This document shows, one piece after another, positions 8,393-34,892 of a stretch of 34,892 nt of DNA. Within the stretch, counting starts at the first letter, position 1; each line of letters opens with the position of its first letter. The notes beneath the pieces are model-generated. The model had not been told where the DNA came from, did no database searches, and saw only the letters and a program-made list of their open reading frames with translations. The DNA lies in contig JAITHB010000099.1 of the NCBI GenBank assembly GCA_031280145.1, positions 1 to 34,892 of the forward strand, read 5' to 3'. The DNA is from Oscillospiraceae bacterium (GTDB lineage: Bacteria; Bacillota; Clostridia; Christensenellales; Aristaeellaceae). Both the position numbers and the translations under genes were made by a program.

Positions 8393-8471
8393 CACAAATG
8401 AGGCGCAAAAGAAAGGCTACTTTTAATCTTTCACCCAATATGAATGTTTTCTAATCTTTTTATAAAGAAAG

Positions 8472-8489
8472 GGCGGAAATCATTCCGCC
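8472..8489. terminator. Stem-loop flanking MITE-like copy 1 (left)
   Basis: GGCGGAA (8472-8478), loop ATCA, TTCCGCC (8483-8489): a 7-bp perfect stem ending one base before the element's terminal repeat. Its stem resembles that of the palindrome on the other side of the element (GACGGAA...TTCCGTC), as if one hairpin had been duplicated and then diverged. Confidence 0.5.
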
Positions 8490-8490
8490 T

Positions 8491-8651
8491 CAGACTGTCG
8501 ACAAAAGCCCACAGGCGTTGTAAAGGGCGGGCGACCGAGGCGGTCGCCCCTACAGGGTGTATGCTATCGGTATACAGGAACTCGATATGCTGTAGGGGCG
8601 AGCCCCTGGCTCGCCCGCTCGCATACAAAACAATCGTTTGTCGACAGTCTG
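8491..8651 (-). repeat. MITE-like palindromic element, copy 1
   Basis: A 161-bp non-coding element bounded by perfect 15-bp terminal inverted repeats, CAGACTGTCGACAAA (8491-8505) and its reverse complement (8637-8651). Inside are two GC-rich hairpins, GGGCGACC...GGTCGCCC and GGGCGAGCC...GGCTCGCCC, separated by an AT-richer centre bounded by CTACAG and CTGTAG. It is in the opposite orientation to the copies at 14286 and 34790, with which it is nearly identical apart from scattered substitutions. No ORF is present, so it would be non-autonomous if mobile. Confidence 0.85.
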
Positions 8652-8673
8652 AGACGGAACGCGTTCCGTCTCA
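8650..8673 (-). terminator. Perfect palindrome downstream of GH94
   Basis: A perfect 24-bp palindrome (arm TGAGACGGAACG) begins 22 bases after the GH94 stop on the minus strand and abuts the MITE-like element. It can form a stable stem-loop and is the most likely transcript end for GH94, although no T tract follows it. Confidence 0.55.
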
Positions 8674-8695: not shown

Positions 8696-11143
8696 CTACA
8701 GAACCACAACAACATCATGCGCCCCGCCGTCAAACGGCGCAATAACGTTCCCCGGCACCCGTACGCCGTCCACGATAACGCTCTTCACCCCCTTGCAGAC
8801 ACAGCTCTCGTTGCGCACCTGAATATTGTAGACCGCGCCGCGGAATCTGCGCGAAACCTTGTAGCCCTTCCATGAGGACGGGATGCACGGGTCGATCGTG
8901 AGACCATCGTAATCAGGCTTGATTCCCAGAATATATTGGCTGACGACATAGAAGTTCCACGCCGCGGTTCCGGTAAGCCAACTGTTCTTCGCTTGACCGT
9001 GCTTGCCATGCGCCGCCGCGTCGCGCCCCGCAATCATCTGCGAGTAGACGTACGGCTCCGTTTTGTGCAAATCGGAAATCTCTTCGCGGTAAGCAGGCGC
9101 GATCTTCTTATATAAATTGAAGGCGCGGTCGCCATGCCCAACCACTGTTTCAGCTGCGATAATCCACGGGTTGTTGTGGCAGAAAATGCCCGCGTTCTCC
9201 TTATAGCCCGGCGGATACGACGATATTTCACCGAGTTCCAAGTGATACTCCTTATAAGCGGGCTGGTTCAGCATGATACCGTGGTCCGTCTCAAGCCTTG
9301 CGGCGACGCTCGCGAGCGCCTGTTCCGCCTTGCCGCCGTCCGTGCCGATTCCCGCCATTACGCAATAGCCGTTCGACTCGATGAATATCTGTCCGTCCTC
9401 GCATTCGCGGCTTCCGATTTTACCGCCGAACGCGTCATACGCCCGCAGGAACCATTCGCCGTCCCAGCCGTGCGCGAGCGTCGCGGCGCGCATCTGCGCA
9501 ACCTCATTCTCGCAGTAAGCCGCGTCTTCTTCCCGCCCAAGTTTGCGGTAAATCCTCGCAAGCTCGGGACCGATCGAAACGAACATTCCCGCGATAAGCA
9601 CGGACTCCGCCACCCTGTCGTCGGGCGCGTTCGGATTGCTGAACGTCTGGAAGCTCTCGTCAGGCTCCGATGAGAAGCAGTTGAGGTTCAGGCAGTCGTT
9701 CCAGTCCGCGCGGCCGATAAGCGGCAGTCCGTGCGGACCTTTGTTGTTCACGACATGGTCGAACGAGGCGCGAAGGTGTTCGAGCAGCGAACCTGTGTCG
9801 TTCGGGTTTGTGTCATATGGAACTTGTTCCGACAGAACGGAGAAGTCGCCCGTTTCCTTTATGTAAGCCGCGGTTCCCGCGATGAGCCACAGCGGGTCGT
9901 CGCCGAAGCCGCCGCCTATATCGTTGTTGCCCTTCTTCGTGAGCGGCTGGTATTGGTGATAACAGCCGCCGTCGCGGAACTGAATCGCCGCGATGTCGAG
10001 TATGCGCTCCCTCGCGCGCGCGGGTATCTGATGAACGAAACCGAGCAAATCCTGGCTGCTGTCGCGGAAGCCGAGCCCTCGCCCTATTCCGCTTTCAAAC
10101 AGGGAAGCTGACCGCGACATGTTGAACGTCACCATGCATTGGTATGGATTCCATATGTTCACCATGCGCGACAGCTTTTCATCGTCAGTAGTGAGAACAT
10201 AAGCGGACAGAAGCTCATCCCAATATTTGCGCAGAGCGGCAAGCGCGGCGTCAACCTGTTCGTCAGTCTCATACTTCTTGATGAGTTCCTTCGCCGGCTG
10301 CTTGTTGATAACGCCAATCGTCTCAAACTTGCTTTCATTCGGCAGTTCCGCATATCCTACGATATACACGAGCGACTGCGTTTCTCCCGCCGCAAGCGTT
10401 AGATCAGCCTGATGGCTGCCTATTGGCTGCCAGCCCGAAGCGATGCTGTTCCTGCTCTTACCCTCGATGACGGCCGCAGGGCTCCCCAAATCGTTATACA
10501 GCCCCATGAACGACTCAAGGTCGGTATCAAAGCCGTCAATCGGTTTGTTGACGGAGAAGAAGGAATAGTGGTTGCGCCGCTCGCGGTATTCCGTCTTGTG
10601 GTAGATTACGCCGCCTTCAACCTCAACTTCGCCCGTCGAGAAATTGCGCTGGAAGTTCAGCATATCGTCCTGCGCGTTCCACAGGCAGAACTCCACGAAC
10701 GAGAACACTTTGAGTTCTTTCGTTTCGGCGGTGTTGTTCGTAATCTTTAATCGATGAATCTCAACGTTGTCTCCGAGCGGAACGAACGCGGTCTGCTCCG
10801 CCCGCACGCCGTTCTTCTCGCTCGTCAGCACCGTATAGCCCATTCCGTGGCGGCATTCATAAAAGTCAAGCTCGGTCTTCGTAGGCTTCCAACCGGGGTT
10901 GAAAACCGTATCGCCGTCTTTTATATAGAAGTAACGCCCGTTTGAATCGACGGGAATGTTATTGTATCGGTATCGCAGAACGCGGCGAAGACGTGCGTCG
11001 CGGTAGAAGCAGTATCCGCCCGACGTATTGGAAATAAGACCGAAGAAGTTCTCGCTGCCCAGATAGTTTATCCATGGATAAGGAGTGCGCGGCGTATCAA
11101 TCACGTATTCGCGCCGCGCGTCGTCAAAATGACCGTACTTCAT
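8696..11143 (-). CDS. GH94 glycoside phosphorylase, cellobiose phosphorylase type
   Basis: An 815-residue protein, the normal length for cytoplasmic GH94 cellobiose phosphorylases, which convert cellobiose and phosphate to glucose 1-phosphate and glucose. It opens [20 protein letters not shown], followed by the [18 protein letters not shown] block, and contains [21 protein letters not shown] (substrate site) and [10 protein letters not shown]; Asp483 of the RADWND motif (478-483) is the expected general acid. [13 protein letters not shown] and the C-terminal beta domain also match. Specificity for cellobiose rather than another beta-glucoside is inferred from overall similarity. GGAGG precedes the ATG. 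The promoter overlaps a LacI-like operator whose core recurs upstream of the sugar ABC transporter, linking uptake to phosphorolysis. Confidence 0.93.
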
Positions 11144-12251: not shown

Positions 12252-12413
12252 AAAAAGAGTTAATTGCGGAGGTTGATCTGCGTTACGCAAGGTCGTGCGA
12301 TCTGTACGTTGTAAGCGGGACGTGGGACCAACAAGGCGGTCGATAGGACCCACCTCGGGAAATCGTCTCTACAGGGATTCCCTATCGGCAATCACACGGA
12401 TTTTGCAAAGTTT

Positions 12414-12441
12414 GGGCGACCGAGGACGGTCGCCCCTACAG
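12414..12441 (+). repeat. Solo arm of the MITE-like element
   Basis: GGGCGACC (12414-12421) and GGTCGCCC (12428-12435) form one of the two GC-rich hairpins of the MITE-like element, followed by CTACAG as in the complete copies. The terminal repeats and the second hairpin are absent, so this is a relic or an independent hairpin unit. It lies in the 198-bp gap between the convergent reductase and permease genes, just after the permease stop, where it may act as a terminator. The rest of the gap holds only degenerate hairpin-like sequence. Confidence 0.55.
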
Positions 12442-12449
12442 GTTCTCTG

Positions 12450-13289
12450 CTACCCCTTAATTCCTGTCATCGCCACGCCCTGCACAAACTGCTTCTGCCC
12501 CGCCAAGAATACAATAAGAAGCGGTATCAAAGTCACCGTGCTTGCCGCCATCACCAAGCCGTAGCTTGTATTGTACTGCGAGTTGAACATGCGCAGACCT
12601 ATCTGGATTGTTTTCACGCTGTCGCGCGTGAGATAGATATACGGTCCCAAAAAGTCGTTCCACGTTGTAATAATCGTGAAGATAACGAGCGTCATAATCG
12701 CGGGCTTCGCGTTGGGCAGCATTATGCGCGACCATATGCCGTATTCGGAAAGCCCGTCTATTCGTGCGGCCTCGCACAGCTCGTCGGGAATGCCGAGGAA
12801 GAACTGACGCATAAGGAACACGCCGAACGCGGAGAACGCTTGAAGGAATATCATAGACCACAGCGTATTATTCAAGTGAAAATACTTTGACATAATAATA
12901 AACTGCGGAACCATATACGCCTGCCAAGGCACCGCGATTGTCGAGAAATACGCAAGAAAGAGCGCGTTGCGCCCGCGGAAGCGAAGCTTCGCGAAAGCGT
13001 ACGCCGCAAAGCTTGACGTAATCACCTGAAGGAACGTGACCACAACCGCGAGAATTACGCTGTTCTCAACATATTGAAGCAGATTTATACGCGTCCAAAT
13101 ATCCTTATAGTTATGCCAAAGCGGCGTCTTGGGCCACCATATTATCGGATACGCCATTATCTCTTCTTCCGCCTTTATTGAAGAGACGAGCATCCACATA
13201 AACGGAAAGAGCGTCGCGATTGTTATAATGGCAAGGGTTAAATACAGCAGTAACGTTACAAGCCATGATCTCCGTTTTTCGCCGACCAT
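12450..13289 (-). CDS. Carbohydrate ABC transporter permease (MalG-like, CUT1)
   Basis: A 279-residue inner-membrane permease with six predicted membrane segments. The EAA loop that contacts the ATPase is EAARIDGLSEYGIWSRIMLP, in the expected place in the C-terminal half, and the protein ends VQGVAMTGIKG as is usual for MalG-type subunits. The ATG has AAGGAG seven bases upstream and lies 15 bases after the stop of the partner permease, so the two are co-translated. It imports sugars together with the MalF-like permease and the binding protein. No ATPase gene is nearby, as is usual in Bacillota where a shared MsmX-type ATPase serves several CUT1 systems. Confidence 0.92.
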   Translation of the reverse strand: MVGEKRRSWLVTLLLYLTLAIITIATLFPFMWMLVSSIKAEEEIMAYPIIWWPKTPLWHNYKDIWTRINLLQYVENSVILAVVVTFLQVITSSFAAYAFAKLRFRGRNALFLAYFSTIAVPWQAYMVPQFIIMSKYFHLNNTLWSMIFLQAFSAFGVFLMRQFFLGIPDELCEAARIDGLSEYGIWSRIMLPNAKPAIMTLVIFTIITTWNDFLGPYIYLTRDSVKTIQIGLRMFNSQYNTSYGLVMAASTVTLIPLLIVFLAGQKQFVQGVAMTGIKG

Positions 13290-14234: not shown

Positions 14235-14263
14235 TGTTTTCCCCTCCTCAATTCTATAAAGAA

Positions 14264-14285
14264 GGGGTGGGTTTTATCCCACCTT
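14264..14285. terminator. Stem-loop flanking MITE-like copy 2 (left)
   Basis: GGTGGG (14266-14271) pairs with CCCACC (14278-14283), immediately before the element's terminal repeat. It is nearly the same hairpin as the one on the far side at 14445-14467. Confidence 0.5.
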
Positions 14286-14445
14286 CAGACTGTCGACAAA
14301 CGATTGTTTTGTATGCGGGCGGGCGAGCCGGGGGCTCGCCCCTACAATATATTGCGTTCCTGTATACCGATAGCCTGCACCATGTAGGGGAGACCGCCTC
14401 GGTCGCCCGCCCTTTACAATACCGATGGGCTTTGTCGACAGCCTA
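14286..14445 (+). repeat. MITE-like palindromic element, copy 2
   Basis: About 160 bp, same orientation as the copy at 34790 and opposite to that at 8491. It begins CAGACTGTCGACAAA and ends TTTGTCGACAGCC, with GGGCGAGCC...GGCTCGCCC followed by GGTCGCCC-type arms inside. It sits between the binding-protein and permease genes of a sugar transporter, flanked by two almost identical GGGTGGG/CCCACCC hairpins, which may be a duplicated target site. Confidence 0.85.
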
Positions 14446-14467
14446 GGGGTGGGTTTATCCCACCCTT
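14445..14467. terminator. Stem-loop flanking MITE-like copy 2 (right)
   Basis: GGGTGGG (14447-14453) and CCCACCC (14459-14465) form a 7-bp stem, extendable by wobble pairs, 32 bases after the binding-protein stop. A hairpin here is typical of sugar ABC operons, where it stabilises the binding-protein message. Confidence 0.6.
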
Positions 14468-34768: not shown

Positions 34769-34788
34769 AGGAACGCTAAAGCGTTCCT
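34769..34788. terminator. Stem-loop flanking MITE-like copy 3
   Basis: AGGAACGC and GCGTTCCT form an 8-bp stem with a TAAA loop, ending one base before the element's terminal repeat, the same relation seen at the other copies. Confidence 0.5.
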
Positions 34789-34789
34789 C

Positions 34790-34892
34790 CAGGCTGTCGA
34801 CAAACGATTATTTTGTATGCGAGCGGGCGAGCCGGGGGCTCGCCCCTACAGCATATTGAGTTCCTGTATACCGATAGCATACATCCTGTAGG
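34790..34892 (+). repeat. MITE-like palindromic element, copy 3 (cut by window end)
   Basis: The first 103 bases of the element, starting CAGGCTGTCGACAAA, with the GGGCGAGCC...GGCTCGCCC hairpin and the CTACAGCATATTG centre, in the same orientation as the copy at 14286. The second hairpin and terminal repeat lie beyond the window. Confidence 0.8.

Follow-up and report, generated by a model that had tools for sequence, protein, structure and literature searches.

A repeat of about 160 bases occurs three times in a 34,892-nucleotide stretch of DNA from an Oscillospiraceae bacterium (the whole stretch is called the window here), and each time it lies directly against a stem-loop. The locus thus raises the question of whether these stem-loops are parts of the repeat or the target into which it inserted and, in the latter case, which enzyme chooses such a target. 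A sequence-only reading of the window had described the three copies and their adjoining stem-loops, and we found them where they had been placed, with a gap of 0–1 nt between hairpin and terminal repeat (Table 1). As also noted there, both complete copies have a hairpin on either side, and the two hairpins of copy 2 are nearly identical.

Table 1. Copies of the repeat and their adjoining hairpins in the window.
Feature	Position	Strand	Sequence or remark
MITE copy 1 (161 bp)	8491–8651	+	ends CAGACTGTCGACAAA...TTTGTCGACAGTCTG
Duplicated hairpin, left of copy 1	8471–8490 (stem-loop 8472–8489)		GGCGGAA ATCA TTCCGCC
Duplicated hairpin, right of copy 1	8652–8673 (stem-loop 8652–8671)		AGACGGAA CGCG TTCCGTCT
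Degenerate partial relative of the element interior	12390–12452		pieces 72% and 88% identical; without termini
MITE copy 2 (160 bp)	14286–14445	-	inverted relative to copy 1
Duplicated hairpin, left of copy 2	14263–14285		GGTGGG/CCCACC; terminator-like on - strand
Duplicated hairpin, right of copy 2	14446–14467		GGGTGGG TTTAT CCCACCC
MITE copy 3, first 103 bp	34790–34892	-	ends at contig end
Hairpin adjoining copy 3	34769–34788		AGGAACGC TAAA GCGTTCCT; other side beyond contig end

Both hairpins of copy 1 score as terminator-like. The left one does so on the - strand, where it is followed by the tail CTTTCTTTAT, and the right one lies about 23 nt beyond the stop of a GH94 gene (8696–11143, - strand). 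The two sides of this copy agree at 16 of 21 positions, which is a low score, but position, register and structure are all the same. Copy 2 has a solute-binding-protein gene on one side and a permease gene on the other (- strand); of its hairpins, one has a terminator-like score, and its duplication has diverged to 17/21. Copy 3 and its hairpin are found upstream of a C1-like peptidase gene.

The element has inverted termini of 15 bp (CAGRCTGTCGACAAA). The genome-wide search and flank comparison that the sequence-only reading had proposed as a check returned both a large family and, as described below, flanking hairpins arranged as direct repeats. In the 2.19-Mb host assembly, the 11-mer inner terminus CTGTCGACAAA has 77 + 74 = 151 exact matches and its reversed control pattern has none, which marks the family as a MITE of high copy number. 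Twelve complete copies could be aligned with a mean identity of 91%, and conservation ends sharply at CAGA / TCTG. The elements fall into length classes of ~152, 190–197 and 235 bp, plus smaller forms, with an overall range of about 150–240 bp. They are non-autonomous and contain no ORF of note and no coding capacity. The family shares with the bacterial MITEs covered by a recent review (PMC10969869) that it is short, non-coding, intergenic, present in many copies and bounded by terminal inverted repeats; it carries no transposase gene, and 30 measured host copies have a target-site duplication at their flanks.

About half of the host genome was covered by a flank survey, in which element ends were paired and their flanks compared. 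A stem-loop adjoins most copies. Flanking stem-loops of different copies have no sequence likeness, whereas the left and right stem-loops of any one copy are the same. They form direct, not inverted, repeats, and asymmetric loops match in orientation. Identical hairpins on both sides are present in L033 (ATACAACCATTATGGTTGCAT), L114 (AGGCGGCCTTACGGAAGGCCGCCA), L013 (ACGTCGGGGGCATGATACGTCCCCCGACGTT, 31/31 bp) and L021 (AGACCGCCGCGCTTATCGCACGGCGGTCT, 29/29 bp), and matches over 24/24 and 22/22 bp are also among the duplications. Since the hairpins are repeated directly within a copy and unrelated between copies, they represent target-site duplications of a whole palindrome.

For measurement we used 31 clear duplications, 30 from host copies and one from an Anaerococcus IS that is described below. 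They are 16–40 bp long, and 12 of them contain no mismatch. When the target was reconstructed, both feet of its best hairpin were no more than 3 nt away from the duplication ends in 20/31 cases, compared with 55 of 2000 random placements. The centre of the duplication is at most 1.5 nt from the dyad axis in 27/31 cases, compared with 130 of 3000 random placements (4%), and among these 27 dyad-centred copies the length of the duplication follows that of the hairpin (r = 0.65, p = 0.0003). The element thus enters at the base of the stem-loop, and the whole stem-loop is directly duplicated at insertion, over a variable length centred on the dyad. When termini are considered singly, a strong stem ends within 3 nt of 58% of 112 host termini and 80% of 60 termini from other genomes, as against 4.6% and 4.4% of random positions, respectively. 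Roughly half of the host candidate end pairs have no clear long duplication, and many of these pairs appear decayed, chimeric or due to chance. The sequence-only reading had named copies without flanking hairpins as evidence that would speak against it. Taken literally, ~22–42% of termini, depending on the threshold, are of this kind; we read them as mostly truncated, diverged or mismatched-flank copies.

What had been proposed from the window was a mobile element that inserts into terminators and duplicates them. The direct hairpin repeats support insertion and duplication, but the target proved to be broader. In the host, many targets lack a T tract, AT-rich palindromes (ATATATCTTAATCGGATATATC) and other repeats being among them, while many targets on plasmids and in other genomes are classic intrinsic terminators with A/T tracts. 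The targets are palindromes in general, very often intrinsic terminators, and not terminators alone. A gene-sparing target choice had also been suggested; long ORFs are in fact avoided, as 10 of 29 targets lie inside an ORF of at least 150 aa, compared with 507 of 600 random positions.

Once duplicated, the two hairpins diverge unevenly. The two sides differ at 33 of 580 stem positions and at 27 of 167 loop positions, i.e., about threefold less in stems (Fisher p = 6e-5, with no correction for relatedness). The stronger divergence of loops fits continued selection on stems. From copy 1 the hairpins had been described as diverged with their pairing kept. This applies to that copy, which has one two-sided change from G-C to A-T, but not to the diverged pairs as a whole, in which 13 changed base pairs are kept and 17 broken (window copy 1 counted twice). 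Compensatory evolution as a general pattern was rejected on these counts.

We found no match to an IS1182 transposase in the window's own assembly, which is 93% complete, and none to an rve-domain transposase. Likewise, end pairs spaced 0.7–3.5 kb apart with long ORFs, examined as candidates for an autonomous full-length host copy, contained no transposase but only housekeeping-type ORFs between unrelated ends. Several host contigs (e.g., C2, C4, C6, C35, C41, and C93) start or stop in or beside element copies. The element therefore probably contributes to the fragmentation of the genome, which may conceal an autonomous partner.

Other genomes of the family and the class contain the same 15-bp terminus as well, and there, too, it adjoins a hairpin in most cases. 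Most of the elements that bear it there are MITEs of 156–266 bp, several with exact hairpin duplications of 22–28 bp. In Anaerococcus provencensis it belongs to an autonomous IS of 1558 bp, whose left end CAGACTGTCGACAAA is identical to the 15-bp MITE terminus and whose flanks are a perfect 25/25 bp duplication of a terminator hairpin. The reading frame of this IS comprises 494 residues and continues into the right flank. Its product matches the NCBIfam model IS1182 (NF033551) with 438.6 bits at a cut-off of 270 and the Pfam families DUF772, DDE_Tnp_1, and DDE_Tnp_1_6; a search by sequence found no solved structural relative. An IS1182 element on a Staphylococcus arlettae plasmid has the identical left end as well. 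The right ends of both IS differ from the MITE at several positions; that of the Anaerococcus IS reads CAGACTGAAGACAAA inward. The transposase with matching terminal repeats for which the sequence-only reading had called was not found in the host assembly but is present in A. provencensis, with a match at the left terminus only.

IS1182 copies from the window's bacterial family and from plasmids insert in the same way. A transposase survey in that family yielded seven exact whole-hairpin duplications of 20–33 bp (L247, 25 bp; L251, 31 bp; L252, 22 bp; L255, 33 bp; L256, 23 bp; L260, 25 bp; L261, 20 bp), a count taken from the copies that were resolved; others in the survey have two different hairpins. 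The ends of these IS1182 copies (CAGACTGTAGACAAA, CAGACCATCAACAAA, and CAGCCTGTCAAAAAA) are related to those of the MITE. On plasmids, 10 of 12 IS1182 copies are flanked by exact whole-terminator duplications of 19–30 bp: Enterococcus casseliflavus (19 bp), Lactococcus (20 bp), Sutcliffiella (30 bp), Acetoanaerobium (24 bp), Listeria (21 bp), E. faecalis (21 bp), S. arlettae (21 bp), and E. faecium (22, 27, and 22 bp). The two exceptions are L284, which has two different hairpins, and L287, which was not among the resolved copies. L284 shares with L250, L259, and L262 a different hairpin on each side, each adjoining the element, perhaps as a result of recombination between copies. A further IS1182 element, L263 (G127), belongs to another subgroup with GAGACCACTGAAAAAG-like ends, and its 9-bp duplication almost coincides with the loop of the hairpin ggagacag...ctgtctcc. 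This single case is a hint of loop-only duplication (pathway c), of which L243 is possibly another instance.

For seven plasmid sites, the empty state was reconstructed by joining both flanks around a single hairpin copy, and the plasmid collection was searched with this sequence. Empty counterparts were found for four of them, all full-length, ungapped and with one hairpin. The site in E. faecium DO matches NZ_CP102071.1 at 367/367 positions and the Listeria site matches NC_013767.1 at 361/361, and the other two empty sites are 97.8% and 99.4% identical. For L285, L277, and L283 the plasmid collection gave no match. Therefore, in these IS1182 relatives, the hairpin preceded the insertion and was doubled by it. 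The empty sites cover IS1182 relatives only, and the relatives searched included no other genome of the window's genus. At L290, the orthologous site in an Anaerococcus sister species (G753) is unoccupied and has a single terminator with the stem kept but ~50 extra loop bases, so that this site is supportive only.

We consider it highly probable that the MITE owes its mobility to an IS1182-family DDE transposase which acts in trans, accepts any palindrome able to form a stem-loop as target and duplicates the whole stem-loop. The 160-base repeat is apparently a stripped-down relative of IS1182-family elements. Because the window's own assembly contains no IS1182 transposase, the driver of the copies in the window is deduced from the common left terminus and the mode of insertion, which make an IS1182 transposase the likely candidate.

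Alternatively, the hairpins could belong to the element itself as the variable outer stems of a structured RNA or a chromosome-organising repeat, as had also been suggested from the window. The lower divergence of stems, which may still be functional, and the compensatory pair change at copy 1 would agree with this, yet the hairpins are direct repeats down to their asymmetric loops while having entirely different sequences from copy to copy, and the empty sites of IS1182 relatives carry a single hairpin without the element. No Rfam family matches the window at the gathering threshold, and the outer stems lie outside the element. This alternative is hence unsupported, and we regard it as extremely improbable.

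Two other explanations accept the duplication and concern the enzyme. The long duplications of the IS1202 family made it our first candidate for the driver: its long-duplication subgroup generates unusually long target duplications of 16–28 bp, and some of its ends start with TGT (PMC10132070). If such a transposase were at work in the window's species, the IS1182 link would be coincidental. The subgroup, however, uses a TnsB-like rve transposase and has no recognised target (PMC10132070), and the host assembly encodes no such enzyme. The IS that bears this terminus elsewhere encodes a transposase of the DDE_Tnp_1/DUF772 IS1182 type, and full hairpin duplication is found with IS1182 relatives. 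The candidate was dropped, and a role for it is very improbable. An IS1182 transposase might also recognise a protein or process at terminators, such as a paused RNA polymerase or a nascent RNA hairpin, instead of a DNA structure. The frequency of classic intrinsic terminators with A/T tracts among targets in other genomes and on plasmids could be taken in this sense, but the many host targets without a T tract, AT-rich palindromes and other repeats among them, and the centring of the duplication on the dyad axis without directional offset make this explanation unlikely.

Recognition of the palindrome as a DNA structure would account for the pattern. Because the sequence of the target is free and its symmetry constant, the enzyme appears to read structure and not sequence. 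In the mechanism that we propose, the target palindrome would be extruded as a cruciform, whose two 5' feet meet at the four-way junction. The feet would meet whatever the length of the stem, so that joining the 3' ends of the element to these 5' feet, followed by gap repair that copies the stem-loop, would leave the element with a complete stem-loop at either end. Since the host keeps a hairpin at both flanks of the element, in many cases a terminator, the target is a gene-sparing one. In L208 and L286, where the stem runs on into an A:T tract, the cut falls within the paired region, close to where the G+C-containing stem ends; cutting "at the foot" is therefore approximate.

Targeting of hairpins by IS1182 members has been published. 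IS1272 and TnSha1 both have an IS1182-family transposase and, as here, a stem-loop target whose sequence is arbitrary and which in many cases is a confirmed transcription terminator (PMC5678879; PMC4923244). They differ in that the hairpin is deleted or replaced without target-site duplication: IS1272 replaces its stem-loop target (pathway a; Wan et al., 2017, PMC5678879), and for TnSha1 a partial loss of the hairpin is reported (Furi et al., 2016, PMC4923244), whereas the whole stem-loop is duplicated at the sites described here. Duplication of a whole hairpin figures in Wan et al. (2017, PMC5678879) only as the hypothetical pathway b of a model figure. Some IS1182-family members with palindromic targets, and thus alike in both family and target, are attributed to Siguier et al. 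(2015, as cited in PMC5678879 and PMC4923244), who according to a citing paper do not give detailed data on these targets. Insertion into extragenic palindromes is also known from the REP-targeting ISPpu9 and ISPsy8, but these target one specific repeat sequence while the palindromes found here are arbitrary in sequence (PMC1525189). For MITEs, a term search of the review PMC10969869 returned no member that targets or duplicates hairpins or derives from IS1182. In the literature searched, we found neither a demonstration of whole-stem-loop duplication nor a MITE that performs it.

The target duplications of most DDE transposons have a length that is a constant of the enzyme, and ISfinder gives a wide range of duplication lengths for the IS1182 family. 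A duplication length that tracks the target palindrome points to structure recognition. Whether a transposase reads cruciform or hairpin DNA in vivo becomes directly testable, because occupied and empty sites are already available in public plasmid records. More broadly, we see about an even chance that a wide branch of the IS1182 family picks its targets purely by DNA structure (an extruded cruciform or hairpin) and cuts the stem-loop at its 5' feet, so that the target sets the duplication length. Three outcomes would then occur within the family, namely replacement of the hairpin (IS1272), its duplication as a whole and perhaps duplication of the loop alone (L263), and MITEs of this branch would colonise genomes while preserving terminators. 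The terminator left on each side suggests a reason why such insertions are tolerated. For annotation, CAGACTGT-type ends together with duplicated terminators provide a signature of IS1182 members and their MITEs. The IS1182 family also includes IS1272 and TnSha1, by which resistance-related genes are spread in staphylococci.

The structure of the elements and of some targets offers further observations. The interior of the MITE contains two modules, GTAGGGGCGA...TCGCCC, that resemble the interspersed repeat GTAGGGGCGATTTCCAATCGCCCCTAC, and hairpins of this other repeat serve as targets in some cases (L068:18762, L107:3055, and L037). Tiny elements of ~34 bp, scarcely more than two termini, occur at L020 (~1302–1335) and L046 (~1468–1734) amid repeated AGCTAATAGCTATTAGCT hairpins, and a 152-bp copy is nested in one of them. 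In five MITEs from other genomes (L167, L171, L185, L193, and L226), the right end is a strong hairpin, e.g., CAGCGTGTCGACTTTGTCGACACGCTG, so that ends and targets are both palindromic.
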